Shown here piece after piece: positions 1,366 to 34,093 of a stretch of 34,116 nt of DNA. Under the pieces are notes generated by a model that did no database searches, was not told the origin of the DNA, and saw only the letters and a program-made list of their open reading frames with translations. The stretch's first letter is position 1, and every line of letters starts with the position of its first letter. The position numbers and the translations under genes are program-made. This DNA is from Thiocapsa sp. (GTDB lineage Bacteria > Pseudomonadota > Gammaproteobacteria > Chromatiales > Chromatiaceae): positions 1-34,116 of the forward strand of contig NZ_JAABRP010000035.1 in the NCBI RefSeq assembly GCF_011390875.1. Direction: 5' to 3'.

Positions 1366-1766
1366 AGCCTGCTTGGCTTCGCGCGGAGCGGGTTGGGTAC
1401 CGGTGGGTTCGTGGTCTCACCGCTGATGGTGTTCGCGCTCGGTGGGACCGACGGCCGCCGTCATCGCTCGCTGTCCTCATGCTGCCGGCGGCGCTGCTCG
1501 GCGTTTGGCAGCATCGTGGTGAGGCCGGAACGGAGCTGCTCCGACCCCTGATCCCCGCTGCTTTCCTAGGCACCGCCATCGGCGGTCTTCTATTTTGGCT
1601 CATGGTCGCCGATGGTGAGATGGCACTGATCCATCGACGCCTGTAGCTCGTCGTAGCGGGCTTGTCGCTCGTCTACGTTGCGATGGTGGCGGCGCGGGAC
1701 AAGATCGCGCGTCTCGGAGGCGGAGGAGGTCCGCCGCGTTCCTGTCCGCAGTGGTGTTCAACCTAA
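1366..1766 (+). pseudogene. Broken TSUP (TauE/SafE-type) permease gene
   Basis: The frame from 1366 reads SLLGFARSGLGTGGFVVSPL then MVFALGGTDG, which matches the glycine-rich first repeat of TSUP permeases that export small sulfur or organic anions. The frame shifts near 1455-1470 into LAVLMLPAALLGVWQHR and PLIPAAFLGTAIGGLLFWL. This is interrupted by TAG at 1644, after which LVVAGLSLVYVAMVAARDKI continues in the same frame. The frame finally ends at TAA 1764-1766, inside the 86-bp repeat. There is no start region, one frameshift, one nonsense codon and no second half, so it is a dead fragment. Its predicted helices and order fit the family well. Confidence 0.7.
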
Positions 1767-1848
1767 ACCGCGTCACCGCCAAGGGCCGTGGATGCAACAA
1801 ACGCCGAGTTCACTCGAACGTTGGCCTCTCGCTGTGGACGCGGTTTAA
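1763..1848. repeat. 86-bp inverted-end repeat, copy 1 (subfamily A)
   Basis: The element opens CTAAACCGCGTC and closes GACGCGGTTTAA. It aligns without gaps to the copies at 29523 and 34008 (reverse complement), including an internal GATGCAACAAACGCCGAG block. It separates two converging reading frames, and both end in it: the broken permease at TAA 1764-1766, and the ClC gene at TAA (minus) 1847-1845. Confidence 0.85.
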
Positions 1849-3884
1849 CGTGACTCAATCGGCACCAGACGCTCGTCGGGTGTCAGGGGGCGGATCATCG
1901 GGTCGAGGCGCCGCAAGCGGGCCGGCAGGTTGGCCAGTGCTGTCTCGGCCGCGGTGCGGTCGGCGTAGGCCCCGAGCAACACGGGATGCCAGCGCGCACC
2001 GAGTCCGTCCGTCTGCAGCTTGAATGCCTCGCCGATCAGCCCCTCCTCCTCGGCGAAACGCGCAAGGCTTCCGACACTGCGGAAACTGATCAACTGAATG
2101 CTGAAACGGGCGTCTGCCACAGTGGTGGAACCTTGATCGTTTGGCGCCGACGTCGTCGCGACGGGCTCCAAAGTCGCCTGGTCGTCCGACGGATCCGGGT
2201 CAGCAGCACGCTCCGGCACGGACTCGGTAGACGTCGGCGGCGCCGGCAGATCTGCTGAAACCAGCCGTTCGTCGGTCACCGGCTCGCGATCGCCTGTTGG
2301 GCCGAGGGTCAAATCGGAACCGGCGGCCTCGATTGCCGGCGCGGCGTCAACGGCGGTTGGCCGTGACGGGACCAAGGCTGTCGCTGCCGGGGCGCTCGAC
2401 GCGACCGGAGGCGGATCGGCACGCGTCCCGGACACGGCGGCCGGTTGGTCCGCCACGGCCGGAATCGGCGGGTCCACCTCGGCCTGGGTCTCGGCCAGGG
2501 TCTTGCCCGGTTCCATCCCCGTTCCTTGAAACGCGACGTCGAGTCGTTCGATGGCGACGAACGCGACCAGGAGCATCGCCGCGGCAAGGATGCGCCGAGC
2601 CGGTGCGCGCGGTGGTGCCTGCTGTTGGAGCCCGAGCAGAGCGCTGTAGATCGGCCGCCCGCCCATGCCCTCGGCCGTGAAGGTGGCGGCCAGGCAGGTG
2701 ATGATGATCGGCAGGGCCAGGGCTTGAGCGCCGGTGAGCTCGATCACCAGGATGATGCCGGTGAGCGGCGCGCGCACGGTGGCCGCGAAGAGCGCGCCCA
2801 TGGCCGCGACCGCGAACATCTCCGGGGCGAGCGCCAGTGTCGGCGCCGCGAGCGTGATCAGGGCCGCGAAGGCCGCGCCGCAGATGGTGCCGAGCGCGAG
2901 CATCGGCGCGAAGATGCCGCCCGGGAGACCCAGACCGTAGGAGCCGATGGACGTCAGCAGCCGCACCGCGAGCAGCGCGATCAAAAAGAGCAACGCCGGT
3001 TGGCCGTGCACCAGGCTCTCGACCAAGCCTTCCCCGCCGCCGACGGTATTGGGCGCGAACCACAGCAGCGCACCGAGCATCAGACCGGCGACGGCGGCGG
3101 CGGTGTAAGCCCCGGGGGTCCCGAGCGCGCGGAACGACGCCACCGAGCCAAGCACCAGCCCGTTGAACAGCACGCCAAGGGCGCCGATGAGGATGCCGAG
3201 GACCAAAAACAGCGGCAGCGCCTCCAGCGGCGCCGTGTTCAGGTCCGGCATCGCCATATCCGGACCCTGGCCAAGCATCCAGCCGCTCACGATGACCGCG
3301 GCACAGCAGGCGAGGATGACGGACTGGATGGTCTCGAAGCGATACTCGAAGTGCTCGCGCAGCTCCTCGGTGACGAAGACGATGGATGCGAGCGGCGCGT
3401 TGAAGGCGGTTGCCAAGCCGGCCGCCGCACCGGCCGCGATGAGGGCACGATTGGCGCCGGGTCGCGGCTCGATGCGCTCGCCGGCCATCTGGCCAAGCGC
3501 CGCACCCATATGGATGGTCGGCCCTTCGCGCCCGAGCACCAAACCGGAGCCGACCGCCAAAGCGCCGGCGACGAACTTCACCGGCAGCACGCGCTTCCAG
3601 CGCAATTGGCGTTCGCCGGCGAGGATGGCCTCGACCTCTTGCACGCCGCTGCCTGCGGTCTCCGGAGCGAAGCGTCGCACCAGCCACATCGCCGTGACCA
3701 GCACCAAGGCACCGAGCAGCATCAGCAGAAGCCAACCGGGTACGGGGGCCGCCTCGAGAAGTGCTTTCAGATCGCCGCGGCTGGCGGCGGCTTGATCCAG
3801 CAGTGCATGGAAGGCCGCGCCGATCAGCCCGGTGAGGACGCCGACGAGGGTTGCTGCAAGGTAAAACCGCCAGGGAAACGTCAT
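1845..3884 (-). CDS. ClC-family H+/Cl- antiporter with an extra membrane helix and C-terminal SPOR domain (679 aa)
   Basis: Residues 1-420 form a complete ClC channel/antiporter. GSGVQ (78-82), GREGP (118-122, gating Glu120) and GIFAP (323-327) line the anion path, with a Tyr at 413. Glu174 in VTEELREHF occupies the position of the proton glutamate of CLC-ec1, which favours H+/Cl- exchange over a channel. After the ClC core comes one more hydrophobic segment (about 431-446), a long Pro/Ala-rich linker (about 450-600), and a SPOR-like domain (about 604-676: FSIQLISF ... WHPVLLGAYADRTAAETAL). SPOR domains bind denuded septal peptidoglycan. The extra helix would move the tail from the cytoplasm to the periplasm, where it could do so. 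It lies 18 bases after the DedA-type gene, probably in one operon. The stop codon lies in an 86-bp repeat. Confidence 0.9.
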   Translation of the reverse strand: MTFPWRFYLAATLVGVLTGLIGAAFHALLDQAAASRGDLKALLEAAPVPGWLLLMLLGALVLVTAMWLVRRFAPETAGSGVQEVEAILAGERQLRWKRVLPVKFVAGALAVGSGLVLGREGPTIHMGAALGQMAGERIEPRPGANRALIAAGAAAGLATAFNAPLASIVFVTEELREHFEYRFETIQSVILACCAAVIVSGWMLGQGPDMAMPDLNTAPLEALPLFLVLGILIGALGVLFNGLVLGSVASFRALGTPGAYTAAAVAGLMLGALLWFAPNTVGGGEGLVESLVHGQPALLFLIALLAVRLLTSIGSYGLGLPGGIFAPMLALGTICGAAFAALITLAAPTLALAPEMFAVAAMGALFAATVRAPLTGIILVIELTGAQALALPIIITCLAATFTAEGMGGRPIYSALLGLQQQAPPRAPARRILAAAMLLVAFVAIERLDVAFQGTGMEPGKTLAETQAEVDPPIPAVADQPAAVSGTRADPPPVASSAPAATALVPSRPTAVDAAPAIEAAGSDLTLGPTGDREPVTDERLVSADLPAPPTSTESVPERAADPDPSDDQATLEPVATTSAPNDQGSTTVADARFSIQLISFRSVGSLARFAEEEGLIGEAFKLQTDGLGARWHPVLLGAYADRTAAETALANLPARLRRLDPMIRPLTPDERLVPIESR

Positions 3885-3902
3885 CGCTGGACGCGGACCG
3901 AC

Positions 3903-4733
3903 CTACGTCGGGTGGTTCCGGCCCCGCCGCCGGATCAGGGCGATCAGCACGGAGAACAACAGGACGACGACGCCGATGATGGTGAGACCGGCGATCCACG
4001 GGTTGAGCTGACGCAACGCAGTGACCAACACATCGAAGTGCAGATCGAGATAATAGACGCCGAGCGCCCAGAAACTCGCCCAGAGGATGGCGCCGACAAT
4101 ATTGAGGAGCATGAAACGCCCCCAAGGCATCTTCAGGACACCTGAAAAGAGCCCGATGAGCTGGCGCGGCCCATCGACGAAGCGACCGAAGACGACGAGC
4201 CATCCACCATACCGATTGAATGCGCGCTCGATCTTCTCGATGCCCTGCTTGGAGATCGGCAACCGATCGAGTACAGCGCGCCCGCCCGAACGACCGATCA
4301 GATAGCCGAGGGTCTGACCGAGAGAGGTCGCCAGGATGGTGACGAACAGCAGCAGGTAGATGTTGAGCTTGCTGCCGGGTGCCGCGGAGACCAGGGCGCC
4401 GGCTTCCAAGAGTGTCTGTCCGGGTGCCGGAATCCCGATGCCCTCGATCCCGACCGCCGCGAATACCGCCCAGTAGCCGTAGCGTTCCAGGTAGGGCTCG
4501 ACGCGTTCGATGTCGTGAGTGATCGCCCCTGCGAGCCGGTGCGCTTGCTCATCGAGCTTTCGCTCGCTGCCGCGATGCAGCTCCGTCGGCTGCTGCGCCG
4601 ATGCGCCGGTCGGTTGCGCAAGCGCAGTGTGGCCGATTCCAACGGCCGAAACTGCGATGACCAGCAGGCACCCTAGAAGAATCCAAGTGAAACGACCACT
4701 GAAACGCTGCGAATCTGTTTCGGACATGGGCAT
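3903..4733 (-). CDS. DedA/VTT-family membrane protein with N-terminal extension (276 aa)
   Basis: The VTT core spans about residues 80-260. It includes IEGIGIPAPGQTLLEAGAL, a Gly-rich helix (TLGYLIGRSGG) and GRFVDGPRQLIGLFSG, the family's conserved arginine-containing re-entrant motif. DedA proteins act in the inner membrane in lipid (undecaprenyl or phospholipid) translocation and membrane-potential maintenance; which applies here cannot be told. An additional N-terminal helix (about 16-38) and a polar 40-residue segment precede the core, making the protein longer than the usual 200-220 aa. Two in-frame ATGs (4733 and 4727) are both plausible. The downstream ClC-SPOR gene is 18 bases away and likely co-transcribed. 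Confidence 0.85.
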   Translation of the reverse strand: MPMSETDSQRFSGRFTWILLGCLLVIAVSAVGIGHTALAQPTGASAQQPTELHRGSERKLDEQAHRLAGAITHDIERVEPYLERYGYWAVFAAVGIEGIGIPAPGQTLLEAGALVSAAPGSKLNIYLLLFVTILATSLGQTLGYLIGRSGGRAVLDRLPISKQGIEKIERAFNRYGGWLVVFGRFVDGPRQLIGLFSGVLKMPWGRFMLLNIVGAILWASFWALGVYYLDLHFDVLVTALRQLNPWIAGLTIIGVVVLLFSVLIALIRRRGRNHPT

Positions 4734-5341: not shown

Positions 5342-5959
5342 ATGAATACGGAGCTCCCGATTATCTATGTCGCTCGCCACGGCGAGACGGCGTGGAGCCG
5401 ATCCGGTCGGCATACGGGTCTGACCGACATCCCCTTGAGCACCGAGGGCGAGCGCGATGCGGCGTTGCTCGCGGACCGGCTTGAGAACATCCCCTTTCGA
5501 ACGGTCTTGGCGAGCCCGCTGATGCGCGCCCTCCGCACCTGCGAGCTGGCAGGCTTCGGTGCGGTGGCCGAGATCGATCGCGACCTGGTCGAGTGGAACT
5601 ACGGCGACTACGAAGGGCAGACCACGCAACAGATTCGAGCCGGTCGCCCCGACTGGAGGCTGTTTCGCGACGGCTGTCCCGGGGGCGAGTCGTTGGATCA
5701 GGTCGGCGCACGGGCGGATCGGGTCATCGCCAGGGTTCGGGCGACCGAGGGAAACGTGCTCCTGTTCTCGAGTGGCCATTTTCTGCGTGTATTCGCCGCG
5801 CGCTGGCTCGGGTTGGCGCCCGATGCCGGCAGATTCTTTATGCTCCTCACCGCGAGCTTGAGCGCGTTGGGTTACGAGCACGACCTCGATGAGCCTGTCA
5901 TCCGTTTCTGGGATGACACGAACCGATGTCCATCAACGCCGCACAAGGTGATGCAATGA
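5342..5959 (+). CDS. Histidine phosphatase family protein (GpmB/CobC-like), 205 aa
   Basis: The phosphohistidine motif RHGETAW (12-18, nucleophile His13), Arg62 in SPLMRAL, acid residue Glu84 in LVEWNYGDYEG and the second histidine in SSGHFLRV (His146) are all present. This is a complete branch-2 phosphoglycerate-mutase-like fold. Members are cofactor-independent phosphatases on small phosphorylated substrates rather than true mutases. The substrate here is unknown, but the sugar-phosphate genes that follow suggest a phospho-sugar. The start is set at 5342, where GGAGAG precedes the ATG. An upstream GTG at 5249 would add 31 residues that do not fit the family. Confidence 0.85.
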   Translation: MNTELPIIYVARHGETAWSRSGRHTGLTDIPLSTEGERDAALLADRLENIPFRTVLASPLMRALRTCELAGFGAVAEIDRDLVEWNYGDYEGQTTQQIRAGRPDWRLFRDGCPGGESLDQVGARADRVIARVRATEGNVLLFSSGHFLRVFAARWLGLAPDAGRFFMLLTASLSALGYEHDLDEPVIRFWDDTNRCPSTPHKVMQ

Positions 5960-5966
5960 AACGGAT

Positions 5967-6224
5967 CGGGTGAGCTGTGGGCCACCCCGGGAGGTCGAGC
6001 GTCCGGTGGCTGCTCCCAAGCCCGTCGATGTAGTGCTCGGCGGCGGCAACGCGAAACGTCTGACCGAGCTGCCCGCAGGCTGTCGATCGGGGGACAACGC
6101 CAACGCCTGTGTCGGCGGGCTCCGTGCCCGGGAGCCGAAGACCGGCCCGCAAGCCGGGTTCGCCAAGCTCGCCGATGCATCGCCTTCAGCGTGAGAATAC
6201 AAAGCCCGAGACCTAAGCCACGTC
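5967..6224 (+). pseudogene. Internally deleted duplicate of the ROK kinase gene
   Basis: Bases 5967-5999 match the leader of the intact ROK gene (6450-6482). From 6000 on, the sequence matches that gene's 3' end and beyond (7013-7236), including DVVLGGGNAKRLTELPAGCR and the stop at 6192-6194. About 530 bp, carrying the start codon and the whole nucleotide-binding half, are missing. Both ends of the missing piece in the intact copy carry GGTCGAG (6476-6482 and 7006-7012), and one GGTCGAG remains at the junction (5993-5999). That is the signature of deletion between short direct repeats. The remaining C-terminal frame carries substitutions such as Phe to Cys in NANA(C/F)VGG. Confidence 0.85.
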
Positions 6225-6447
6225 CGGAGCGACATGCGTCTTTGTCCCATTTTGGCCATGGACGCGCGCGCCCGCACGTTGGAACATGCGTGGCAATCAC
6301 GGCTGGCCCGCATGCGCTTGCCGTCGATGCTCCGGTGGGTCGACGTCCATCACGAGTGCCAACAGCGTTCAGTGCCACTCTCAGTTCTCGAGCAACAGTC
6401 GTCCGGCAGCGGAAGATGAAGTCCAGCGCCGAACAATTAGGAACCGG
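6225..6447. other. Unassigned DNA between the ROK copies
   Basis: No family motif is seen on either strand. Short frames overlap freely. It is the spacer between the deleted and intact ROK copies and may be the remains of a duplicated neighbour. Confidence 0.3.
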
Positions 6448-6505
6448 GCCGGGTGAGCTGTGAGCCACCCGGGGAGGTCGAGATGATGGTGCGGAGGGGT
6501 CCAAA

Positions 6506-7207
6506 ATGAAGATCCTCGCTGTCGATGTGGGTGGAACCCACGTCAAGATTCTCGCGAGCGGGCAGACCGAGCGCCGGGAATTCGAATCCGGACCCACCCT
6601 GACCGCTGCCGGGATGGTCGAGCAGGTCAAGGCACTCGCTGCAGATTGGCCGTACGACCGGGTGACCATCGGCTACCCGGGTCCAGTGCTGCACAACCGC
6701 CCGGTGGCGGAGCCCCATAACCTTTCCTCGGGGTGGGTCGCGTTTGATTTCGCCGACGCCTTCGGTCAGCCGGTCAAGGTCATGAACGACGCGGCAATGC
6801 AGGCTCTCGGGAGCTACCGGGGAGGGAAGATGCTGTTTCTCGGCCTCGGGACCGGGCTCGGGTCCACGATGATCGTGGCGGATCACATCGAGCCGATGGA
6901 GCTGGGCCACCTGCCCTACCGCAAGGGGACTTACGAGGATTATGTCGGGCTGCGCGGCCTCCAGCGACATGGCAAGAAAAAATGGCGGGCCTTTGTGGCG
7001 GACGTGGTCGAGCGTCTGGTGGCTGCTCTCGAGCCCGACGATGTGGTGCTCGGCGGCGGCAACGCGAAACGTCTGACCGAGCTGCCCGCAGGCTGTCGAT
7101 TGGGGGACAACGCCAACGCCTTTGTCGGCGGGTTCCGTGCCTGGGAGCCGAAGACCGGCTCGCAAGCCGCGTTCCCCACGGTCGCCGATGAATCGCCGTC
7201 AGCGTGA
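6506..7207 (+). CDS. ROK-family kinase, polyphosphate-glucokinase type (233 aa)
   Basis: Phosphate-binding DVGGTHVK (7-14), catalytic Asp95 in NDAAMQALGS and the second phosphate loop LGLGTGLGS (112-120) define a sugar kinase of the ROK/ASKHA fold. The zinc-binding cysteine motif of transcriptional-repressor and NagK-type ROK proteins is absent. ELGHLPY (132-138) replaces it, as in polyphosphate/ATP glucokinases, so phosphorylation of glucose to glucose-6-phosphate is the likely reaction; the phosphate donor is not readable. GGAGGGG precedes the ATG. The gene starts a tightly packed run (pgi, fba, gnd, zwf). A second, deleted copy lies immediately upstream. Confidence 0.8.
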   Translation: MKILAVDVGGTHVKILASGQTERREFESGPTLTAAGMVEQVKALAADWPYDRVTIGYPGPVLHNRPVAEPHNLSSGWVAFDFADAFGQPVKVMNDAAMQALGSYRGGKMLFLGLGTGLGSTMIVADHIEPMELGHLPYRKGTYEDYVGLRGLQRHGKKKWRAFVADVVERLVAALEPDDVVLGGGNAKRLTELPAGCRLGDNANAFVGGFRAWEPKTGSQAAFPTVADESPSA

Positions 7208-7255
7208 GAATCACAAAGCCCGCGAGACCCAAATGACCCGAGAGGAGTCGTGCGC

Positions 7256-8274
7256 ATGAACCCCACTCAGCCACTTCTAACCGAGCGCCCCGCTTGGGAA
7301 GCGCTCCGCGCCCACCGGGATGCCATCGCCCCGCTGACGCTGCGCGGACTGTTCGCCGACGACCCGGGGCGCGGCGAGCGCTTATCGCTCGAGGCCGCGG
7401 GCGTCTATCTCGACTACTCGAAGAATCGCGTCACGGACGAGACCCTCGCGCTCCTGGTGCAGCTCGCGGAACAGTCGGGACTGCGCGAGCGCATCGATGC
7501 GATGTTCCGCGGCGAGCGCATCAACGTCTCGGAAAACCGCTCCGTTCTGCATGTGGCCCTACGCGCCCCGCGCAGCGCGTCGATCCTCGTCGATGGGGTG
7601 AACGTCGTCGATGAGGTTCACCAGGTGCTCGATCGCATGGCCGAATTCGCCGAGCAGGTCCGAAGCGGCGCATGGAAGGGACATACCGGTCAGCGAATCG
7701 TGAACGTCCTGAACATCGGCATCGGCGGCTCCGACCTCGGTCCCGTGATGGCCTACGAAGCGCTGAAGTTCTACAGCGACCGCGCCATGACCTTCCGCTT
7801 CGTGTCCAATATCGACGGCACGGACTTCGTCGAGGCAACCCGTGACCTGGATCCTGCGGAGACCCTCTTCATCGTCGCCTCCAAGACCTTCACGACATGT
7901 TGCTCGCCAACGTCTTTGCCCAAGGCGAGGCCCTGGCCTTCGGCAAGACACGCGAGGAGGTCGCGGCCGAGGGTTCGCCGGCGTGGCTGGTGCCGCACCG
8001 CACATTCGACGGTAACCGGCCCTCCAATACCATCCTACTCGATCGGCTGACGCCGGCCGCGCTCGGCAAGCTGGTCGCACTCTACGAGCACAGTGTCTTC
8101 ACACAAGGGGCCATCTGGGACATCGATTCCTTCGACCAATGGGGCGTGGAGCTCGGGAAGGTGCTGGCCAAGCGCATCCTGCCGGAGCTGGGACACGCCG
8201 AGCCCGTGCTCGGGCATGACAGCTCCACCAACGCCCTGATCCGCCGCTACCGACAGTTGCGAGGTCCACTATGA
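7256..8274 (+). pseudogene. pgi: Glucose-6-phosphate isomerase gene with central deletion
   Basis: The first part (about 212 residues) is a normal Pgi N-terminal half, with [20 protein letters not shown] and SKTFTT. At about 7897 the sequence jumps, out of frame, to [11 protein letters not shown] and runs to the normal end ([22 protein letters not shown]). About 200 residues that carry active-site segments are missing compared with the intact copy at 23208-24857. The junction reads ttcACGACAtg. It serves both the Thr-Thr codons and the His-Asp-Met codons, so deletion between short matching sequences is likely. The first half alone would read on to 8050 as nonsense. The stop overlaps the ATG of the aldolase gene. 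Confidence 0.88.
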
Positions 8275-9733: not shown

Positions 9734-11113
9734 ATGAGCGAGTTGCAATCCGATGCATTGGTCTTCTTCGGCGCCACCGGGGATCTCGCGTACAAGAAGA
9801 TCTTCCCGGCCCTGCAGGCGATGGTGAAGCGCGGAACGCTGACGGTTCCGGTGATCGGCGTGGCGAAGGCCGGCTGGGACCTCGAGCAGCTCAAAGCACG
9901 CGCCAAGGCGAGTCTCGAGGAGCACGGCGGCGGGGCGGATCCGCAGGCATTCCCCCGGCTGATGGAGCTGCTCGGATACGTGGATGGCGACTACGCCGAC
10001 GCGGCGACCTTTCAGGCCTTACGCCAAACGCTCGGCGACGCTCGGTGCCCCGCGCACTACCTCGCGATCCCCCCGATGCTGTTCGGGGCCGTGGTGGAGC
10101 AATTGGCCAAGGCCGGGTGCACGACCCCGGGCACCCGCGTCGTGGTCGAGAAGCCCTTCGGCAGCGATCTGGACTCGGCGCGCGCACTGAACGCGATCCT
10201 GCTGGCCACGTTCGACGAGGATCACATCTTCCGCATCGATCATTACCTGGGGAAGCGACCGGTCCACAATATGGTGTTTTTTCGCTTCACCAACCCCCTG
10301 CTCGAGTCGCTGTGGAGCCGCGAGCACGTCAAGAGCGTGCAGATCACCATGGCGGAAGACTTCGGCGTCCAAGGCCGCGGCGCCTTCTACGACCAAACCG
10401 GCACCATCCGCGACGTGGTGCAGAATCACCTGTTCCAGGTGCTCGCGAATCTGGCCATGGAGCCGCCGGCGCGCACCGACAGCGAGTCCATGCGCGACGA
10501 GAAGGTCAAGGTGCTGAAGGCGATCCAGCCCCTTGCGGCGGCCGACCTGGTGCGCGGTCGGTTCCGTGGCTACCTCGACGAGCCGGGTGTCGCCCCCGAG
10601 TCCAACACGGAGACCTTCGCGGCGCTGCGTCTCGGGATCGAGAACTGGCGCTGGGAGGGTGTGCCCTTCTTCATCCGCGCCGGCAAATCGCTCCCGGTCA
10701 CCTGCACCGAGGTGATCGCCCATCTGAAGCAGGCACCGAGGGTCTTCCCGGGATGCCGGCCTCACCGCAACTACTTCCGTTTCCGGATTTCCCCGGCCAA
10801 CGAGATGGCGTTCGGACTCACTGTCATGGACGCCGAGGAAAAGGGTTTGGGACAAGCCACCGAGCTGATGGCAAGCCGCCACGCGGAGGCGAACGAAATG
10901 GATGCCTACGAGCGCGTGCTGACCGACGCGATGAGCGGCGACCGGACCCTCTTCGCGCGGGAAGACTATGTGGAGGAAGCCTGGCGCATCGTCGATCCGG
11001 TGCTCAAGGCGGGAACGCCGCTGCACGGTTACGAGCCCGGCACCTGGGGTCCGCCGGAGACCGAACGCATCGCGCCGCCGGAGGGCTGGGGCAACCCGGT
11101 CGTGGCCGGTTAA
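9734..11113 (+). CDS. zwf: Glucose-6-phosphate 1-dehydrogenase, first copy (459 aa)
   Basis: It oxidises glucose-6-phosphate to 6-phosphogluconolactone with NAD(P)+. The cofactor loop GATGDLA (13-19), VVVEKPFG and the substrate-binding RIDHYLGK (167-174, with catalytic His downstream) are all present. The residues after the latter are RPVHN where EPVQN is usual. The ATG at 9734 follows GAGGCAACC, 22 bases after the gnd stop, so it was the last gene of the sugar operon. A start further upstream would overlap gnd. The stop TAA (11111-11113) lies at the edge of a variant repeat. A different, intact zwf lies at 24919-26394, and the two proteins are clearly divergent paralogues. Confidence 0.9.
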   Translation: MSELQSDALVFFGATGDLAYKKIFPALQAMVKRGTLTVPVIGVAKAGWDLEQLKARAKASLEEHGGGADPQAFPRLMELLGYVDGDYADAATFQALRQTLGDARCPAHYLAIPPMLFGAVVEQLAKAGCTTPGTRVVVEKPFGSDLDSARALNAILLATFDEDHIFRIDHYLGKRPVHNMVFFRFTNPLLESLWSREHVKSVQITMAEDFGVQGRGAFYDQTGTIRDVVQNHLFQVLANLAMEPPARTDSESMRDEKVKVLKAIQPLAAADLVRGRFRGYLDEPGVAPESNTETFAALRLGIENWRWEGVPFFIRAGKSLPVTCTEVIAHLKQAPRVFPGCRPHRNYFRFRISPANEMAFGLTVMDAEEKGLGQATELMASRHAEANEMDAYERVLTDAMSGDRTLFAREDYVEEAWRIVDPVLKAGTPLHGYEPGTWGPPETERIAPPEGWGNPVVAG

Positions 11114-11196
11114 TCCGCACCCGGCGCGGTATGCGATGTTTTTGGATGGGATCGGCCTCGGCAGATTTGACGAGCGCTGGAGCTGGCGCGGTTTAA
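11110..11196. repeat. 87-bp inverted-end repeat, variant C (upstream partner of copy 2)
   Basis: It opens TTAATCCGCACC and closes CTGGCGCGGTTTAA. The internal GCGGTATGCG block is shared with 11803-11859. Its TAA (11111-11113) is the zwf stop codon. A 20-base AT-rich linker (11197-11216) joins it to copy 2. Confidence 0.65.
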
Positions 11197-11216
11197 GATA
11201 TTAAAAATAATAAATT

Positions 11217-11302
11217 TTAAACCGTGTCTTACCGAGATCGAGGACATCTCCTAAGCCAAACGCAAAATGAAAATGACGCATGTCGCTTTGGACGCGGTTT
11301 AG
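11217..11302. repeat. 86-bp inverted-end repeat, copy 2 (subfamily B)
   Basis: It opens TTAAACCGTGTC and closes GACGCGGTTTAG. The interior CCTAAGCCAAACGCAAAATG is shared with copy 3 (11881-11966). It lies between zwf and the tautomerase gene. Confidence 0.85.
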
Positions 11303-11304
11303 TG

Positions 11305-11479
11305 ACGATTCAGAAATAAGGTGAACGCCTTGGTGAACGCGTAGGATGGGTAGAGCCTCAGCGAAACCCATCCTCCAAACCGCCGCGTTGCCGGGTTTCG
11401 GTCCGATGCGCTTGGCGCGGGCTGGATGGGTTTCGCTTCGCTCTACCCATCCTACGTGTTTCGGTTGTTTTTGAATCGT
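11305..11479. repeat. 175-bp palindromic element with nested arms
   Basis: The outer arms 11305-11319 and 11465-11479 pair with two mismatches. The inner arms carry GTAGGATGGGTAGAGC (11341-11356) and GCTCTACCCATCCTAC (11440-11455), and GCGAAACCCATCC (11361-11373) matches GGATGGGTTTCGC (11424-11436). The inner GGATGGGT...ACCCATCC motif resembles a palindromic repeat common in many proteobacterial genomes. No gene lies inside. It fills most of the space between copy 2 and the tautomerase gene. Confidence 0.7.
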
Positions 11480-11605
11480 TCCTGATACACGCGCTGCTGC
11501 GATCGGTGACGTGGACGGGTTTATGTGCAGACCCGGCAGTTCCCGGTCACGTCGTTTTGTTTTTTCGCTGCTTCCTTATCCCGCTCGGATCAACCGGAGA
11601 GCGAC

Positions 11606-11806
11606 ATGCCCTACGTCAACATCAAGATCACCCGCGAGGGTGCGACCGCGGAGCAGAAGGCGGCACTCATCCAGGGCGTCACCCAACTGCTGGTCGACGT
11701 GCTCGGGAAGAATCCGCAGACAACGATGGTCGTCATCGACGAGGTAGAGACCGACAACTGGGGCATCGGCGGGGAGAGCGTGACGCTGCGCCGCCGCCGA
11801 GACTAA
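11606..11806 (+). CDS. 4-oxalocrotonate tautomerase family protein (66 aa)
   Basis: MPYVNIKITREGATAEQKAA begins with the proline that becomes the N-terminal catalytic base after Met removal. It continues LIQGVTQLLVDVLGKNPQTT and VVIDEVETDNWGIGGESV, the complete small-tautomerase monomer that assembles as a hexamer. The usual arginine positions (Arg11 region, R at the C-terminus) are plausible. Such stand-alone members tautomerise keto-enol substrates, and the physiological substrate cannot be told. GGAGA lies 5 bases before the ATG. Longer frames start upstream, but their added residues are unrelated to the family. The stop TAA is the first TAA of a shortened repeat (11803-11859). Confidence 0.88.
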   Translation: MPYVNIKITREGATAEQKAALIQGVTQLLVDVLGKNPQTTMVVIDEVETDNWGIGGESVTLRRRRD

Positions 11807-11859
11807 ACCACCCCCGGTGCGGTATGCGTCATTTGCGGGAATGGACTGGCGCGGTTTAA
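11803..11859. repeat. Shortened inverted-end repeat, variant C (upstream partner of copy 3)
   Basis: It opens CTAAACCACCCC and closes CTGGCGCGGTTTAA. It matches 11110-11196 but lacks about 30 interior bases. Its TAA is the tautomerase stop. A 21-base AT-rich linker joins it to copy 3. Confidence 0.65.
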
Positions 11860-11880
11860 AGTCTTAAAAAGCATTAAATT

Positions 11881-11966
11881 CTAAACCGCGTCTCACGGGG
11901 ATCAAGGATATCTCCGAAGCCAAACGCACAATGAAAACGACGCATATCGCTCTGGACGCGGGTTAG
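11881..11966. repeat. 86-bp inverted-end repeat, copy 3 (subfamily B)
   Basis: It opens CTAAACCGCGTC and closes GACGCGGGTTAG. It aligns gap-free with copy 2. The right end supplies the TAA stop of the minus-strand Uma2 gene (11965-11963). Confidence 0.85.
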
Positions 11967-12526
11967 GTTCCATCGCCCAGAATGTAACCCAAGTCGATCT
12001 CGACGCCGTCGAACGGCGGGATACGCATCTTTCGCTCGTCGGGGCCGGGCGCGGCGACACTGGCGATGACCCGGTAGCTTCCCCCGTCGAGTTGCCAGGC
12101 AATCAGCGAGCGTTCCTCGGGCCAGATCAGCCAGTAGTAGGACACCTGTTGGCGTTGAAGCAGCAGAAACAGGGTCAGCGTGTCCTTGCGCTCATGTCCA
12201 GGCGAAACGATCTCGCACACCCAGTCCGGGACGATCTCGACCACCCCGCGCGGGCGCTCCGGCAAGCGTTCCTTGCGCCAGCCCGCGAGATCGTGGGTCG
12301 GACACTGGTGGGCGGAATAGTGGACGCTGACCTCGCTGGCGATCCACCAGCCGCCGGGGCCAACGGTGCGTCGTAACGAGTCGAGCTCGGCAACCGTATT
12401 GCTTTGCACGAAACCGTGCTCGATCCGCGCCATCGGGCGCTGGACGATCTCGCCATCGATCAGCTCGACACGCTCATCGGCAGCATTGAGCAGATCGGCC
12501 AGGGTCTTGAGTTTGAATGCTTCCAT
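11963..12526 (-). CDS. Uma2-family (DUF820) putative endonuclease-fold protein (187 aa)
   Basis: The protein begins MEAFKLKTLADLLNAADERV, then ELIDGEIVQRPMARIEHGFV. The core has PDWVCEIVSPGHERKDTL and a VSYYWLIWPEERSLIAWQL strand-helix. This is the PD-(D/E)XK-like arrangement of the Uma2/DUF820 family, common in cyanobacteria and Chromatiales and of uncertain function. Here the Asp of PDW, the Glu of CEIVSP and the Lys of ERKDTL are kept. The start at 12526 is preferred, with a GGAG nearby. A longer frame to 12778 would run back through the adjacent repeat. The gene is flanked on both sides by 86-bp repeats. Confidence 0.8.
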   Translation of the reverse strand: MEAFKLKTLADLLNAADERVELIDGEIVQRPMARIEHGFVQSNTVAELDSLRRTVGPGGWWIASEVSVHYSAHQCPTHDLAGWRKERLPERPRGVVEIVPDWVCEIVSPGHERKDTLTLFLLLQRQQVSYYWLIWPEERSLIAWQLDGGSYRVIASVAAPGPDERKMRIPPFDGVEIDLGYILGDGT

Positions 12527-12563
12527 CGCCGTCGCTCCGCTGGGTTCAACATCGACGTTTAAC

Positions 12564-12649
12564 CTAAACCGCGTCTCCACAAAGGTCGGAAAAATCCTTG
12601 AGTCCGACACAACATGAAAACGATGCCTAGCGGTCGGGACGCGGTTTAA
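12564..12649. repeat. 86-bp inverted-end repeat, copy 4 (subfamily B, divergent)
   Basis: It opens CTAAACCGCGTC and closes GACGCGGTTTAA. The interior AACATGAAAACGATGC resembles copy 3. It supplies the mtnA stop (12648-12646 on minus) and sits upstream of the Uma2 gene. Confidence 0.85.
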
Positions 12650-15092: not shown

Positions 15093-15121
15093 ACCCTGCC
15101 CGGCACGACATGGATCCTTGT

Positions 15122-15142
15122 AGGGGCAACTTGAGTCGCCCC
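15122..15142. terminator. Hairpin after mtaD
   Basis: AGGGGCAAC and GTCGCCCCT pair with one mismatch over a short loop, 29 bases after the mtaD stop, between convergent genes. It may be a terminator. There is no T-run. Confidence 0.4.
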
Positions 15143-15173
15143 TGCCTGGTGTGTGGTCGTCCGCCTTCTCGTG

Positions 15174-15205
15174 AATCGCCTAAGCCAAGGGCAGACGCGG
15201 TTTAG
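15174..15205. repeat. Truncated inverted-end repeat, copy 5
   Basis: The right end GACGCGGTTTAG and the interior CCTAAGCCAA of subfamily B are kept. The left end and part of the interior are gone. It provides the rlpA stop codon TAA (15204-15202 on minus). Confidence 0.6.
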
Positions 15206-23207: not shown

Positions 23208-24857
23208 TCAGGCGCGGCGCCCCCGAATGAATTCGTTCAGCAGGGCTCGCGTCGATGCATCGTGATCCCCGCCGACACGCCCTTCGCCGAGCTCTTCGAG
23301 AATCACTCCCGCGAGCTGTTTGCCGAGCTCCACACCCCACTGGTCGAACGAGTTGATCCCCCAGAGGACACCCTGTACGAAAATCCGATGTTCGTAGAGC
23401 GCAATCAAAGCCCCCAACGTAAAGGGCGTCAGACGCTCCATCAAGAGACTGTTGGTCGGTCGGTTGCCGGGGAAGGTTCGATGATGCGCAAGGAACTGCG
23501 CCCGATCCTCGGACACCCCGGCGCTCAGCATCTCGGCAAGCGCCTCCTGTGTGGTACGACCGCGCATCAGGGCCTCGGTTTGCGCAAAGAAGTTGGCCAT
23601 GAGCTTTAGATGATGATCGCCGAGCTCGTTGTGGCTCTTGATCGCGCCGATGAAATCGGCCGGGATCAGTTGCGTACCCTGATGAATGAGCTGGTAAAAG
23701 GCATGTTGCCCGTCGGTGCCCGGCTCGCCCCAGACGACTGGGCCGGTGGTGTAGTCCACGGCGACGCCCTCGCGGGTGACGCCTTTGCCGTTGCTCTCCA
23801 TATCGCCTTGCTGAAGGTACGCCGGCAAAAGCCTCAGATACTGATCGTAGGGCAAGACGGCATGCGTTCGGGCACCCCAAAAATTGGCGTACCAGACCCC
23901 GAGCAGACCCAGCACGACGGGCATGTTTTCCGCCGACGGGGCGGTTCGAAAGTGCTCGTCCATCGCAAAGGCGCCCTCGAGCAGCTCTACGAAGCGCTCG
24001 TAACCGACCGCCAACGCGATCGGTAGACCGATGGCCGACCAGAGCGAGTAGCGCCCGCCCACCCAATCCCAAAACCCGAACATGTTCCGGGTGTCGATCC
24101 CGAACGCGGACACCTTCTCGGCATTGGTCGAGACTGCGACGAAGTGCTTGGCGACCGCCGCCGGATCGCGCGCCGCCGCCAGCAGCCAGTCGCGCGCGCT
24201 GGTGGCATTGGTCATGGTCTCCTGTGTCGTGAAGGTCTTGGAGGCCACGATGAAGAGTGTGCGTGCCGGATCCAGGTCGTTGAGCGTCTCCAGGAGATGG
24301 GTCCCGTCGACGTTGGAGACGAAGTGGACCCGAAGGTCGTTGCTGCCGTAAGCGCCGAGCGCCGTGCAGACCATCTTGGGTCCGAGATTGGAGCCGCCGA
24401 TGCCGATGTTGACGACATCGCGGATGGACTGGCCCTGAAAGCCCTTCCACTCGCCCGAGCGGACCAGCCCGACGAACGACTCGAGACGCTCGAGCACGCG
24501 ATTGACCCCGGGCATCACGTCTTGGCCGTCCACCTGGATTGGTCGATTGGACCGATTGCGCAGGGCGACATGCAACACCGCGCGTTCCTCGGTGTTGTTG
24601 ATGGGCTCTCCGGCGAACATCCGGGCGATCCAACCGTTCATGTCGGCGGTTTCAGCGAGATCGAGCAGCAGCCCAAGGGTCTGCGGGGTGGCTAGGTTCT
24701 TCGAGTAATCCAGACGCAGTCCCGCGACGGACAGGCGCATCCTGTCGGCGCGGCCGGGATCGGACGCAAAGAGATCGCGCATCGCGACGTCCTGCAACTC
24801 TTGCCGGTGCTGCTCCAGTGCCCGCCATGCGGCTGTTTGATTGATGAGCGACGTCAT
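23208..24857 (-). CDS. pgi: Glucose-6-phosphate isomerase (549 aa), intact
   Basis: It interconverts glucose-6-phosphate and fructose-6-phosphate in the cytoplasm. The Pgi signature blocks are present: [41 protein letters not shown], the middle segment with [19 protein letters not shown], and near the C-terminus [13 protein letters not shown] and HDASTRALL. Length is that of the family. The start at 24857 follows AGGAGA; frames to 24917 only add leader sequence. It is 61 bases downstream of the second zwf on the same strand, so zwf-pgi is one unit. It supplies the function lost in the deleted pgi at 7256-8274. The two are paralogues, not a recent duplication. Confidence 0.95.
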
Positions 24858-24918
24858 GAAGTTCTCCTGATAAGGCGTTGGCGAATGTTGCAGCTGGCCG
24901 GCTCGACGATCCCGCAAC

Positions 24919-26394
24919 TCACTCGTCCATCCCCTCCCGCCAAGACTGATCGTCTCGGTCGAACAAGCGGTTGGCTTCGGGCGGCCCGCAGGACCCGGCA
25001 GGATAGGTCTGGATGAAGTCGCGCTCGGTGGACCACAGCTTCAGCACCGGATCCACCACCCGCCACGCCCAATCGACCTCGTCGAAGCGCAGGAAATGGG
25101 TATGGTCGCCCTCGATCACGTCCAGGATGAGCGCCTCGTAGGCGTCGATCTGCTCGGAGGGGATGGTGCATCGGCTCGCGTCCAGCCGTTCGGTCTGCGT
25201 GCGCATCTCGAGTCCGGGTTGCTTGACCTGGATCTCCATGCGGATGCACTCGTTGGGCTGGATGTTGAGCAGCAGCCAGTTGGGTTTGAGCTGCTCGATC
25301 GCCGTATAGCGGAACAGCTGCTGCGGCGGATGCTTGAACCGGATAGCGATCAGGGAGTTGCTGCGGGCAAGACGCTTTCCCGTGCGCAGATAAAAAGGCA
25401 CGTTGCGCCAGCGCCAGTTGTCGATGTAGAGCTTCAGCGAGGCATAGGTCTCGGTGGTGCTGTTGTGCCCGACGCCGGGCTCGTCGCGGTAGCCTGCAAC
25501 CTTGCTTCCGCCGGCAGCGCCGGGCCCGTATTGTGCGCGAAAGGCCTGTGCATGTACCGCCTCGCGCGGGATCGGGCGAATGGAGCGCAGCACCTTGACC
25601 TTCTCGTCGCGCAGCGCCTCGGCATCCAGGCAGGGCGGAGGCTCCATCGCCACCAGGGTCAGCATCTGCAGGAGATGGCTCTGGATCATGTCGCGCATGG
25701 CGCCCACACCATCGTAGAAACCGGCGCGCTCTCCGATCCCGGCCGCCTCGGCGTGCGAGATCTGCACATGATCGATATAGTTGCGATTCCAAAGGGGCTC
25801 GAGCATCAGATTGGCGAAGCGGAACACCAGGATGTTCTGAACCGTGCTCTTGCCCAAATAGTGATCGATGCGAAAGATCTGCGACTCGGCGAAACAGTGC
25901 CGAATGCGTCGATCGAGGATGGCCGCACTCTCGAGGTCGAATCCGAAGGGTTTCTCGACCACCAGACGTGACCAACGCCCGTCCTCGGTATTCAGACCCT
26001 GAGCGGCCAGGTTGTCCACGATACCGCCGTAGTGCTTGGGCGCCACCGCCAGATAGGTCATGAGGTTGGCCGGGATGTCCGCCTCCTCGCGCAGTCGTTC
26101 GGCCAGGCGTAAGTAGCCGGCGGACTCTTCCAGGTCACCTTCCACGAAGAGCATCCGGCCGAGCAGACGTTCCAAGACTTGCGCGTCGGTTGCGCCGGGC
26201 AGTCGCTCGGCGAGCCTCGCCCGGACCTCGTCGCGCCATTCGCCATCCGACCAAGCGCGGCGGCCGAATCCGATGATCCGAGTCTCGGGATGAAGACGTT
26301 CCGCCGCCTCGATGTGATAGAGCGCCGGGAGTAGCTTGATACTCACAAGGTTACCCGTCGAGCCGAAGATCAGGATGGTGCAGGGATCCAGCAT
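24919..26394 (-). CDS. zwf: Glucose-6-phosphate 1-dehydrogenase, second copy (491 aa)
   Basis: Cofactor loop [18 protein letters not shown] (9-26), [23 protein letters not shown] (175-187) and the C-terminal [12 protein letters not shown] are present. In the cofactor loop an Asn (residue 15) replaces the usual Asp of GA(S/T)GDL, which may affect cofactor preference or stability but does not truncate the enzyme. Length is that of the main bacterial family, longer than the first copy. GAGGCACC lies upstream of the ATG. The gene is divergent from glgA with 111 bases between the starts, and is followed by pgi, which suggests coordinated use of glucose-6-phosphate from glycogen. Confidence 0.92.
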
Positions 26395-29507: not shown

Positions 29508-29522
29508 TGCCCTTTCCGCATT

Positions 29523-29608
29523 TTAAACCGCGTTCCCGCAAAGGGTTGTAGATGTAACGAACGTCGAGCTCGCGCGAGAATCAGCATCTCGCTCTGGACG
29601 CGGTTTAG
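29523..29608. repeat. 86-bp inverted-end repeat, copy 6 (subfamily A)
   Basis: It opens TTAAACCGCGTT and closes GACGCGGTTTAG. The interior GTCGAGCTCGCGCGAG can fold. It lies in the panB-panC gap and supplies the panB stop TAA (29607-29605 on minus). Confidence 0.87.
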
Positions 29609-30408: not shown

Positions 30409-30513
30409 GGTCGACTCCGAAGGTCAGGCTTGATGACGCGAGGATAGTGGCCGAGATCAAGCAACGCTACCCCGTGCACGATCACCGCACTCGGTTAGGT
30501 CGGTGCGGCAGAA

Positions 30514-31926: not shown

Positions 31927-32000
31927 GAAGGCGTCACCCGGTGCCGAGCACGACGGGGCGCGGAGCTGCAGCCATTGGTAAGACGAAGGTCACAGCCGGC

Positions 32001-32028
32001 TTGTAGAGCGCCGTGATGCGCGTATAAT
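32001..32028 (+). promoter_or_regulatory. Sigma-70 promoter of the tRNA gene
   Basis: TTGTAG (32001-32006), a 16-base spacer and a perfect TATAAT (32023-32028) lie 24 bases upstream of the tRNA, an expected distance for a stable-RNA promoter. Confidence 0.7.
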
Positions 32029-32052
32029 ACGCGTTTCCACGCCGCAGTACCT

Positions 32053-32127
32053 GCTCCCTTCGTCTAGCGGTTAGGACGCTGGCCTCTCACGCCGGTAACA
32101 GGGGTTCGAACCCCCTAGGGAGCGCCA
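32053..32127 (+). tRNA. tRNA-Glu (CTC)
   Basis: The acceptor stem GCTCCCT/AGGGAGC closes a cloverleaf with a D-arm (TCTAGCGGTTAGGA), an anticodon stem CTGGC/GCCGG, loop CTCTCAC giving anticodon CTC (32086-32088), and a T-arm GGGGTTCGAACCCC. The discriminator G is followed by encoded CCA. The sequence matches bacterial glutamate tRNAs. Most bacteria rely on a TTC tRNA, so this is the additional GAG reader of a high-GC genome. Confidence 0.93.
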
Positions 32128-32420
32128 AATCCAAGCCGATGATTCATAGGTCTGTTTGACACAATCATCGCGACTATCCCGGATTCCGAAGTTTTTCTTC
32201 CGCCTCCCGGCACGGCCATCGCCAGGCCCGCGATGACGAGGGCTCACGCCCACCCCCGCGCTCCCCGGCAGGACCGAGCAGATCCCGACAGACACCGACG
32301 AGGTATCCGAAAGGACGGGCCCCGGAGGTCGACAGCTTCTGCGCGAACATCCGCCGGCCGCTTCCTTCGGCGCGCGGTGCCGGGCGCACCCGGCATCGCC
32401 CAGCCGCCGACGCCGGCGAG
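32128..32420. other. Convergent intergenic region after tRNA-Glu and ffh
   Basis: No gene is recognised. A T5 run at 32192-32196 after weak pairing could end the tRNA transcript. TGCCGGG/CCCGGCA (32378-32395) is a firm hairpin 26 bases past the ffh stop. Confidence 0.4.
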
Positions 32421-33827
32421 CTACATCGGGAAGCCACCCGGCGGCATGCCGCCCGGCGGGAAGCCCCCACCCGGCGGAAAGCCTCCGGGCATGCGCCCCT
32501 GCATCGAGCGCATCATCTTGGCCATGCCGCCGCCCTTCATCTTCTTCAGCATCTTCTGCATCTGAGCGAACTGCTTGAGCAGGCGGTTCACGTCCTGCAC
32601 CTCGGTGCCGGATCCGGCGGCGATGCGACGCTTTCGCGACCCCTTGATGACGGCGGGAAAACGGCGCTCCTGAGGTGTCATCGAGTTGATGATGGCAATC
32701 AGCTTGCCCATCTCTTTGTCGCTGGCCTTGTTCTTGACATGATCGGGGATCTGCCCCATCCCCGGAAGCTTGTCCATCAGGCTCATCATGCCGCCCATGT
32801 TCGCCATCTGATCGAGTTGCTCTTTGAAGTCGACGAGATCGAACTCCTTGCCCTTCTTGAGCTTTTTGACCAGCCTCTCGGCCTTGTCCTTGTCGACCTT
32901 GGACTGGACCTCCTCGACCAGCGAGACCACGTCGCCCATGCCGAGGATGCGCGAGGCGACGCGATCCGGATAAAAGGGCTCGAGTGCCGTGGTCTTCTCG
33001 CCGGTGCCGAGGAATTTGATGGGCTTGCCGGTGATGTGGCGGATCGAAAGGGCCGCACCGCCGCGGGCATCGCCGTCGGTCTTGGTGAGGACCACACCGG
33101 TCAGCGGCAGGGCCTCGTCGAAAGCCTTTGCCGTGTTGGCCGCATCCTGACCCGTCATGGCATCCACGACGAAGAGGGTCTCGACCGGCTTCAACGCGGC
33201 ATGAACGGCCTTGATCTCGTCCATCATGGCCGAGTCGACATGCAGCCGGCCGGCGGTGTCGACGATCAGCACATCCTTGAAGTGCTTGCGCGCCGCATCG
33301 AGTGCGCGCTTGGCGATATCGATCGGGTTCTGATCCGGGGTGCTCGGATAGAATTCGGCCCCGACCTCGGCCGCGACCGTCTTCAACTGCTCGATAGCGG
33401 CCGGGCGGTAGACGTCGCAGCTCACGACCATCACCGATTTGCCCTGCTTCTCTTGCAGCCAGCGCGCGAGCTTGGCGACACTGGTCGTTTTGCCCGAGCC
33501 CTGCAGGCCCGCCATGAGCACCACGGCCGGCGGCTGCGCGGTCAGGTCCAACTGCTCGTTGGCCTGGCCCATGAGCGTGACCAGCTCGTCGTTGACGATC
33601 TTGATCATGACCTGACCCGGCGTCAGACTCCGGGTCACGGTCTCGCCGAGCGCCTTCTCGCGGACATCCTCGACGAACTGTCGCACCACCGGTAGGGCAA
33701 CGTCGGCCTCCAGGAGCGCCATGCGCACCTGACGGACGGTTTCCTTGATGTTCTCTTCGGTCAGACGACCCTGACCGCGCAGATTGTTCAGGACATCGCC
33801 GAAACGATCCTGGAGAGTCTCAAACAT
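32421..33827 (-). CDS. ffh: Signal recognition particle protein Ffh (468 aa)
   Basis: It is the GTPase of the signal recognition particle, delivering membrane proteins to FtsY with 4.5S RNA. The N domain is followed by G1 GLQGSGKTT (107-115), DTAGR (190-194) and TKTDGD (248-253). The Met-rich M domain (MANMGGMMSLMDKLPGMG ... MLKKMKGGGMAKMM) ends in a Pro-Gly tail. The start at 33827 with GAGGTC matches the family. The frame extending to 33956 has no conserved residues. The usual downstream rpsP cluster is not present; a tRNA is found instead. Confidence 0.95.
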   Translation of the reverse strand: MFETLQDRFGDVLNNLRGQGRLTEENIKETVRQVRMALLEADVALPVVRQFVEDVREKALGETVTRSLTPGQVMIKIVNDELVTLMGQANEQLDLTAQPPAVVLMAGLQGSGKTTSVAKLARWLQEKQGKSVMVVSCDVYRPAAIEQLKTVAAEVGAEFYPSTPDQNPIDIAKRALDAARKHFKDVLIVDTAGRLHVDSAMMDEIKAVHAALKPVETLFVVDAMTGQDAANTAKAFDEALPLTGVVLTKTDGDARGGAALSIRHITGKPIKFLGTGEKTTALEPFYPDRVASRILGMGDVVSLVEEVQSKVDKDKAERLVKKLKKGKEFDLVDFKEQLDQMANMGGMMSLMDKLPGMGQIPDHVKNKASDKEMGKLIAIINSMTPQERRFPAVIKGSRKRRIAAGSGTEVQDVNRLLKQFAQMQKMLKKMKGGGMAKMMRSMQGRMPGGFPPGGGFPPGGMPPGGFPM

Positions 33828-33923
33828 AAGTTGACCTCGAGCCTCGTCGGGCCACGATGCCCGCACGGATATTCGATCTGATATTAGGCCGGCGTCGGCC
33901 CGGCCTGTCGCGAAAGTTCCGAG

Positions 33924-33929
33924 TATAAT
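33924..33929 (+). promoter_or_regulatory. Candidate -10 box divergent from ffh
   Basis: A perfect TATAAT, without a good -35 at the right spacing, points away from ffh. The only small frame after it (ATG 33928, 27 codons) ends at a TGA formed by the end of repeat copy 7. That frame is unlikely to be a gene. Confidence 0.3.
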
Positions 33930-34007
33930 GCCCGCCATCGGCAGGCGATACGACAAGGCCCCGTCTCGACGACGTCAGGTTTGCGCTCGCCCTGTGGGCG
34001 ACCCCAC

Positions 34008-34093
34008 TTGAACCGCGTCCAGAGCGAGATGCTGACTTTCGAGTGAGTTCGACGTTTGGTGCATCCACAACATTTAGCGGGGACGCGGTTTAA
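34008..34093. repeat. 86-bp inverted-end repeat, copy 7 (subfamily A, reverse orientation)
   Basis: Read on the minus strand it opens TTAAACCGCGTC and closes GACGCGGTTCAA. It aligns gap-free with copies 1 and 6. An AT-rich linker (34094-34112) follows, then TTTA at the window edge, which suggests a partner element just outside. Confidence 0.85.

Follow-up and report, generated by a model that had tools for sequence, protein, structure and literature searches.

Why do so many genes in a short stretch of a Thiocapsa sp. genome end inside the same small repeat? The stretch, which we call the window, has 34,116 nucleotides (contig NZ_JAABRP010000035.1), and contains several copies of a hairpin element of about 84 bp, whose ends have the form YTAAACC..GGTTTAR (Y, pyrimidine; R, purine), plus covarying variants. 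The original prediction, made from the sequence of the window, suggested either a preference for landing in the TA of stop codons or selection for a portable unit formed by a stop and a hairpin. Our results show that the repeats form a genuine mobile family, of a general kind already known, and that its preference for native stop codons is unusually strong and holds up against controls. We consider that, with a probability of about 70%, its members are non-autonomous mobile elements formed by one or two self-complementary hairpins of ~84 bp, which replace 2 bp at Y/R sites in such a way that stop codons are rebuilt.

In the window, a search for 11-bp inverted arms (TAAACCGCGTC/GACGCGGTTTA, with up to four mismatches) finds seven good copies of 84–85 bp, plus worn copies. 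Their positions are given in Table 1. Seven genes had been listed as stopping in the repeats (ClC-SPOR, zwf, tautomerase, Uma2, mtnA, rlpA and panB, whose names we keep), and in all seven the stop codon is the outermost TAA at the end of an element. The broken TSUP frame also ends in a repeat, at 1764–1766, as had been proposed; two earlier in-frame stops are found in that frame. Convergent neighbours were said to stop in the repeats at two places. This is correct at 11804–11965, where both genes are intact, while near 1763 it only applies if the broken TSUP frame is counted. The position of the stop in the repeat end is indeed shared, being the outermost TAA, but the YTAAACC end is not exact throughout: The zwf end is TAATCC and the Uma2 end TAACCC, while 11804–11858 is a 55-bp remnant and 15121–15204 has only its right arm.

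The stop codon analysis covers 151 loci in 1.83 Mb (1,827,259 bp) from eight Thiocapsa genomes. The genome which contains the window, 91.5% complete, provided 362 kb of its 3.98 Mb, namely stretches picked for exact copies plus the window. Another 1.465 Mb come from seven related genomes, picked by synteny or adjacency, and part of them are counterparts of the copy-bearing stretches of our own genome. An outer end of the element is the stop of a neighbouring called gene at 80 of the 151 loci when a representative member is taken, five of them at both ends. This number rises to 83 if any member is counted, and falls to 68 if the called genes are restricted to those which have 300 bp or more and score strongly as coding. 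Gene stops which face an element are concentrated at a single position: 85 lie at offset zero, 38 at −1 to −50, 39 at −51 to −300 and 3 inside the element, and the commonest other single offset between −60 and +100 is found only 4 times. A small cluster of gene stops is found 8–12 nt outside the element end (11 of the 38 in the −1 to −50 class). In an earlier set of 106 loci, the stop codon supplied was TAA in 53 cases and TGA in 7.

This abundance has been compared with a null formed by unoccupied non-coding YTAR sites, split by intergenic type. Loci outside called intergenic gaps were left out (7 of 92 in the relatives, 4 of 70 in our own genome), and loci present in both relatives and own genome were counted in both tests. 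In convergent regions of the relatives, 57 unoccupied YTAR sites are at stops and 108 elsewhere, while the corresponding numbers of loci are 14 and 4 (odds ratio 6.6, p = 6e-4). Tandem regions have 118 and 482 unoccupied sites, with 28 and 31 loci (odds ratio 3.7, p = 9e-6). Similar results are found in our own genome, with 10 and 18 unoccupied sites versus 14 and 2 loci in convergent regions (odds ratio 12.6, p = 0.001), and 27 and 89 versus 27 and 19 in tandem regions (odds ratio 4.7, p = 3e-5). The few loci in divergent regions, 8 in the relatives and 4 in our own genome, are never at stops. There is thus an excess at stop codons over unoccupied YTAR sites, with odds ratios from 3.7 to 12.6, and the overlap with gene ends does not vanish when the TAA of the element end is taken into account: The excess survives correction for both the YTAR motif and the intergenic type. 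Earlier and smaller locus sets gave stop statistics in the same direction. In two other genera, using stretches picked for copies, clusters are at stops in 9 of 21 and 10 of 21 cases; the intergenic test on these copy-bearing stretches gives 8 of 17 (odds ratio 4.1, p = 0.009) and 10 of 15 (odds ratio 4.8, p = 0.007). In the last 50 codons of genes, YTAR appears 123 times in the other two phases, and a TA stop preceded by a pyrimidine is present in 299 genes, element-ended genes included.

An open frame which reaches an element stops at its TAA, since every TAAACC end has a built-in stop. The overlap might then come from gene calling or from truncated genes, an explanation which we find extremely improbable. 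We have detected 79 ortholog groups with an element-ended gene, 40 of which have an ortholog whose stop lies outside elements. When compared with the closest such ortholog, the final residue of the protein coincides in 32 of the 40 groups and lies within three residues in 7 (39 of 40 altogether), while in the remaining one the ortholog is longer. This comparison of gene ends, which had been suggested as a check, indicates that native stops are hit. In addition, insertion in the other two codon phases should give stops at offsets inside the elements, and there are only 3 of these versus 85 at zero. For most loci with an ortholog, the overlap is not an artefact of this kind.

The type of stop found in the orthologs is also informative. 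In the groups which end at the same residue, TAA-type ends face TAA or TAG in 17 of 25 cases and TGA in 8, while all seven TGA-type ends face TGA. In all 40 groups, TAA-type ends face TAA or TAG in 20 of 32 cases and TGA in 12, and TGA-type ends face TGA in 7 of 8. The entry of TAA-ended elements into TGA stops (8 of 25 groups) does not differ significantly from the turnover in controls (9 of 52, p = 0.16), so targeting of stop codons other than through their TA is unproven. An ungrouped count, 24 of 56 TAA-ended elements facing TGA, appeared stronger because orthologous copies were counted separately. At 11804–11965, two genomes without the element (G102 and G071) have the convergent tautomerase and Uma2 genes overlapping in one TTAA, where both stop. 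In these genomes tautomerase has two codons more than where the element is present.

The element has a well-defined structure. It is a short non-coding unit with terminal inverted repeats, the 11-bp arms. Hairpin length is 81–93 bp, with 308 of 346 hairpins having 83–86 bp, and interiors vary widely. The 151 loci correspond to 96 single hairpins and 55 paired units. A paired unit has ~191–194 bp and is formed by two hairpins separated by an AT-rich spacer of ~22 nt (22–23 nt in 38 of 55, with a mean A+T of 82%). A 20-kb query containing paired units gives many matches of ~190–200 bp in the relatives, with 86–93% identity among the matches listed. Departures of the left arm from the consensus are accompanied by the corresponding change in the right arm in 237 of 529 cases. 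In 500 shuffles of the arms, this number is 64 on average and never exceeds 81; the 373 candidates used in this test include some chance matches. The two hairpins of a paired unit often differ in end type. On the stop side of paired units there is no clear bias in hairpin type in the 106-locus set (10 of GC type, 14 of TA type). Twelve single-strand RNA folds of the seven window hairpins have been obtained. For eleven of them, no more than 10 of 200 shuffles fold as well, the stem being the arms or most of them, while the RNA fold of 11111–11195 is no better than shuffles. The z-scores of five DNA folds lie between −1.47 and −3.24.

The family is abundant in Thiocapsa. A pattern scan of our own genome finds 143 copies with exact ends, and none with the reversed pattern used as a control. 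The same pattern is found in 27 of 194 genomes of the family Chromatiaceae. In the genus it is present in 8 of 11 genomes, including our own, with 47 to 224 copies each. A mismatch-tolerant search detects 346 hairpins in the 1,827,259 bp from the eight genomes, and 0 to 2 per genome in the reversed sequence. The same search finds no hairpins in 120 kb from the three genus members without exact copies. A plasmid collection searched with the first paired unit and IMG/VR searched with the exact-end pattern gave no match. Our literature search on Thiocapsa repeats and miniature inverted-repeat transposable elements (MITEs), with most subscription journals outside its reach, did not find the family, and the accessible text of the T. 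bogorovii genome paper does not mention it (PMC10892978).

Evidence of mobility comes from sites which are empty in another genome, as is the case for 16 of the 151 loci. In 32 of 35 comparisons between filled and empty sites, the whole element, single or paired, is exchanged for exactly 2 bp; the other three comparisons give 1, 3 and 6 bp, once each. Paired units of 191–193 bp are absent as one piece at unoccupied sites. The outer flanking base is a pyrimidine at 282 of 302 ends, and TA is found at both ends of 69 of the 96 single hairpins and 42 of the 55 pairs. The proposed preference for landing in the TA of stops is supported by this 2-bp replacement between Y and R and by the stop types of the orthologs. 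At the mtnA stop (12565–12648), the same flanks enclose hairpins of different subfamilies in six genomes (our own, G153, G102, G185, G071 and G175), as if an ancestral array of several hairpins had been reduced differently in each case, or one hairpin had been swapped for another.

These data suggest a simple mechanism. A paired unit moves as a whole and replaces 2 bp, most often TA, between a pyrimidine and a purine, as shown by the unoccupied sites. In coding sequence, an in-frame YTAA or YTAG is by definition a stop codon. The first base of the element after the dinucleotide is A, so insertion at a stop restores TAA or TGA and the protein does not change, as shown by the orthologs. Insertions within coding sequences are rare and presumably purged. 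The excess over equally good non-coding sites may be due to an additional target preference, to better retention at stops, or to both. The hairpin itself is probably recognised during movement, as suggested by the covariation within hairpins between different copies.

Several facts weigh against this interpretation. An unoccupied site of exactly TA is seen, in one genome or more, at no more than 7 of the 16 loci. Another locus has TTA, another has a 6-bp site starting with TA, and the remaining seven have TC, GA, CA, TT, CC, AA and CA. Moreover, the TC, GA, CC, AA and one of the CA sites are each common to two to four genomes, and a strict TA target is therefore not proven: The target is Y-NN-R, with TA commoner than any other pair. 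Not all hairpins are intergenic, since at least one is found within a called gene. The definition of an unoccupied site, a gap between −2 and 8 bp in the ortholog, leaves much larger differences uncounted; genes were called with a simple in-house caller, and the stretches of our own genome were selected for the presence of exact copies. As regards the enzymes which might move the element, no IS630-type DDE_3 protein was found in our own genome at its 91.5% completeness, the relatives not having been searched for it, and none of the 30 loci inspected, out of 100 matches to Y1 transposases, has an element directly flanking the transposase gene.

It is possible, although somewhat doubtful, that the element is a MITE of the IS630/Tc1-mariner type with a TA target duplication, in which case stops would merely be the commonest harmless TA sites. 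The terminal inverted repeats, the TA at both ends of most copies and the 2-bp exchange all agree with such an origin. On the other hand, stops are over-occupied even when compared with matched non-coding YTAR sites, which are just as good as targets, and no DDE_3 protein was found in our own genome, the only one searched for it (91.5% complete). The variant ends are also difficult to explain in this way. Copies with TG..CA ends do not have direct repeats, and in paired units TG follows the inner foot of its own hairpin instead of the opposite end of the unit. When the outer foot is TG, the inner foot of the same hairpin is TG in 10 of 14 cases. When it is TA, the inner foot is TA in 91 of 95, TG in 3 and TT in 1; a single outer foot is AT. 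In contrast, only 2 of the 55 paired units have TG at both outer ends, while 10 have it at one end.

Agreement between outer and inner feet is what an IS200/IS605-like guide would give. One might imagine that the foot of the hairpin acts as a guide, its inner dinucleotide pairing with the target dinucleotide at its outer foot, so that TA feet would lead to TAA or TAG stops and TG feet to TGA stops. This is conceivable, but we regard it as quite improbable. If true, we would have a hairpin-guided mobile unit which reads stop codons, a safe landing site present in nearly every gene.

A related suggestion is a system similar to that of repetitive extragenic palindromic (REP) sequences or REPINs, where a Y1 (RAYT) transposase acts on single-stranded hairpins. 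We think this is unlikely. It would account for the covarying feet and for hairpins paired with a short spacer, and Y1 transposase matches are found in all 11 genomes of the genus. Nevertheless, these include the three genomes without exact copies. An element is found within 1.5 kb of the Y1 gene at 6 of the 30 loci inspected, never directly beside it. The hairpins have ~84 bp, not 20–40 bp, and the GTAG head is missing. A palindrome pair (GTAGGATGGGTAGAG...CCCATCC / GGATGGGTTTCGC...CCCATCCTAC) adjoins the first paired unit at 11340–11461. By its look we take it to be a GTAG-type REP doublet, and as such it would be a likelier substrate of Y1. In favour of a REP-like system, the termini of GTAG-REPs are described as likewise supplying stops (PMC3733652).

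An explanation compatible with mobility is that the host retains the hairpins as punctuation, because a hairpin placed on a stop would end transcription or protect the 3' end of the mRNA. Insertions elsewhere would then be lost and those at stops kept. We consider this rather unlikely. An unoccupied ortholog is available for 16 loci, of which 7 are at stops, while another 20 loci are occupied in two or more genomes and empty in none, and 15 of these are at stops. The difference favours retention but is not significant (p = 0.087; p = 0.148 in an earlier set with partly mis-joined loci). In a smaller set, the values are 6 of 14 for the former and 16 of 20 for the latter. Loci seen in a single genome are at stops in 61 of 115 cases. 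For comparison, stops represent 17% (175 of 1034) of the unoccupied non-coding YTAR sites of the relatives, versus the 7 of 16 loci with an unoccupied ortholog.

The divergence of the hairpins points in the same direction. At 20 orthologous loci, the arms diverge half as fast as the interiors (7.3% versus 15.3%, per-locus average), and spacers have 18.9% divergence (12 loci); these values come from 236 comparisons of equal-length filled places, 19 of them with worn copies below the detection level of the search. When both sides of an arm pair have changed, Watson–Crick pairing is kept in 21 cases and lost in 6. However, 190 pairs have changed on one side only, and another count gives 202 one-sided changes versus 12 compensated ones, the latter from three loci. 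All these are cells over genome comparisons, not independent events. The slower divergence of the arms fits some constraint in place, while most of the covariation lies between copies, at the level of the moving families. Against punctuation, one of the seven plus-strand window hairpins folds no better than shuffles. Canonical intrinsic terminators, with a GC-rich stem followed by a T run, are absent from positions 10,800–13,000 of the window, the sole region scanned, where shuffles give 2.0. The suggestion that a portable unit of stop plus hairpin is selected has weak support from the divergence of the arms and from the contrast between loci with and without an empty ortholog, but no terminator has been found in that region.

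How does this family compare with other known repeats? The pneumococcal BOX elements are one of the closest precedents: They supply the stop codon at the extreme 3' end of genes, in 36 of 58 overlapping coding sequences, described as without strong evidence of truncation, and they are modular, with 67–637 bp and mobilisation proposed via similarity to ISSpn2 (PMC3049150). The Thiocapsa repeat is also small and supplies the stop of the upstream gene without truncation, as seen at 80 of 151 loci and in the same-residue ends of 32 of 40 groups. Its unit of ~84-bp hairpins is different from the modular BOX; this distinction is based on descriptions, not on an alignment of the sequences. REPs tagged with GTAG or CGTC are described as having 20–40 bp. 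They are often paired, with most dimer spacers of 20–100 bp, and in some species they adjoin gene 3' ends (PMC3733652, PMC2817692). The Thiocapsa palindromes are similar to these REP dimers in being often paired and, in some cases, near gene 3' ends, while they differ in their larger size and in their YTRAACC feet instead of a GTAG or CGTC head. The ERIC/RU-1, RUP and Correia MITEs are reported as short non-autonomous hairpins with TA ends and many copies (PMC2229807, PMC2759123). The Thiocapsa element shares all these features, but those MITEs are described as single units of ~100–170 bp, unlike a two-hairpin unit with ends that often differ and a measured excess at stops.

The supply of stop codons by repeats is therefore already known from BOX and GTAG-REPs, whose reports, as far as their accessible text goes, present it without a matched null (PMC3049150, PMC3733652). 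What is new is the Thiocapsa family itself, together with the covariation of its paired hairpins and an excess at stop codons measured against controls. Orthologous empty sites, together with a matched null, show that a bacterial mobile repeat occupies native stops above the availability of its target motif. In this way a repeat can multiply to hundreds of copies in a dense genome while leaving the genes unbroken. Many genes also come to have similar hairpins at their 3' ends, which could be recruited for control at the RNA level. Since cultured Thiocapsa contain copies whose orthologs are unoccupied, the choice between targeting and retention can be tested.

Table 1. Hairpin elements and associated features in the window
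Feature	Position	Strand	Remarks
Hairpin element, 84 bp, both 11-bp arms exact	1764..1847	.	1845-1847 is the ClC-SPOR stop; 1764-1766 ends the broken TSUP frame
ClC-SPOR gene	1845-3884	-	Stop 1847-1845 in element end
Possible remnant of one element half (TAAGCCACGTCCGGAGCGACATGCGTC), weak	6214..6270	.	
85-bp hairpin element of GGCGCGGTTTA type, left arm worn (TAATCCGCACC)	11111..11195	.	Left half of paired unit 11111-11301; the first zwf stops at 11111-11113
AT-rich spacer of first paired unit, 22 nt	11196..11217	.	
Hairpin element, 84 bp	11218..11301	.	Right half of paired unit 11111-11301
Remnant hairpin, 55 bp, internally shortened	11804..11858	.	Left half of second paired unit; 11804-11806 is the tautomerase stop
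AT-rich spacer of second paired unit, 23 nt	11859..11881	.	
Hairpin element, 84 bp	11882..11965	.	11963-11965 is the stop of the Uma2 gene (-)
Hairpin element, 84 bp, exact arms	12565..12648	.	12646-12648 is the stop of mtnA (-)
Worn copy, only right arm intact	15121..15204	.	Left limit assumed from usual length; 15202-15204 is the rlpA (-) stop
Hairpin element, 84 bp, between panB and panC	29524..29607	.	29605-29607 is the stop of panB (-)
ffh-like gene	32421-33956	-	
Hairpin element, 84 bp, TGAACC left end	34009..34092	.	Upstream of the ffh-like gene; not at a called stop

The window also contains features which are unrelated to the hairpin family. An Rfam scan of the window and of three further regions (L044, L036 and L041) finds only a tRNA above the gathering score; the tRNA gene is at 32053–32124 (RF00005, 60 bits). 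A 206-bp direct repeat is present at 5993–6198 and 7006–7211 (92% identical), and a separate 42-bp repeat at 5958–5999 and 6441–6482 (88%). Two kinds of gene are present twice, with names which, like that of the ffh-like gene, have been assigned by eye: There are two glucose-6-phosphate isomerase-like genes (7250–8274 and 23208–24917) and two zwf-like genes (9734–11113 and 24919–26394). The first isomerase-like copy appears to be split into two overlapping frames, at 7250–8050 and 7897–8274.

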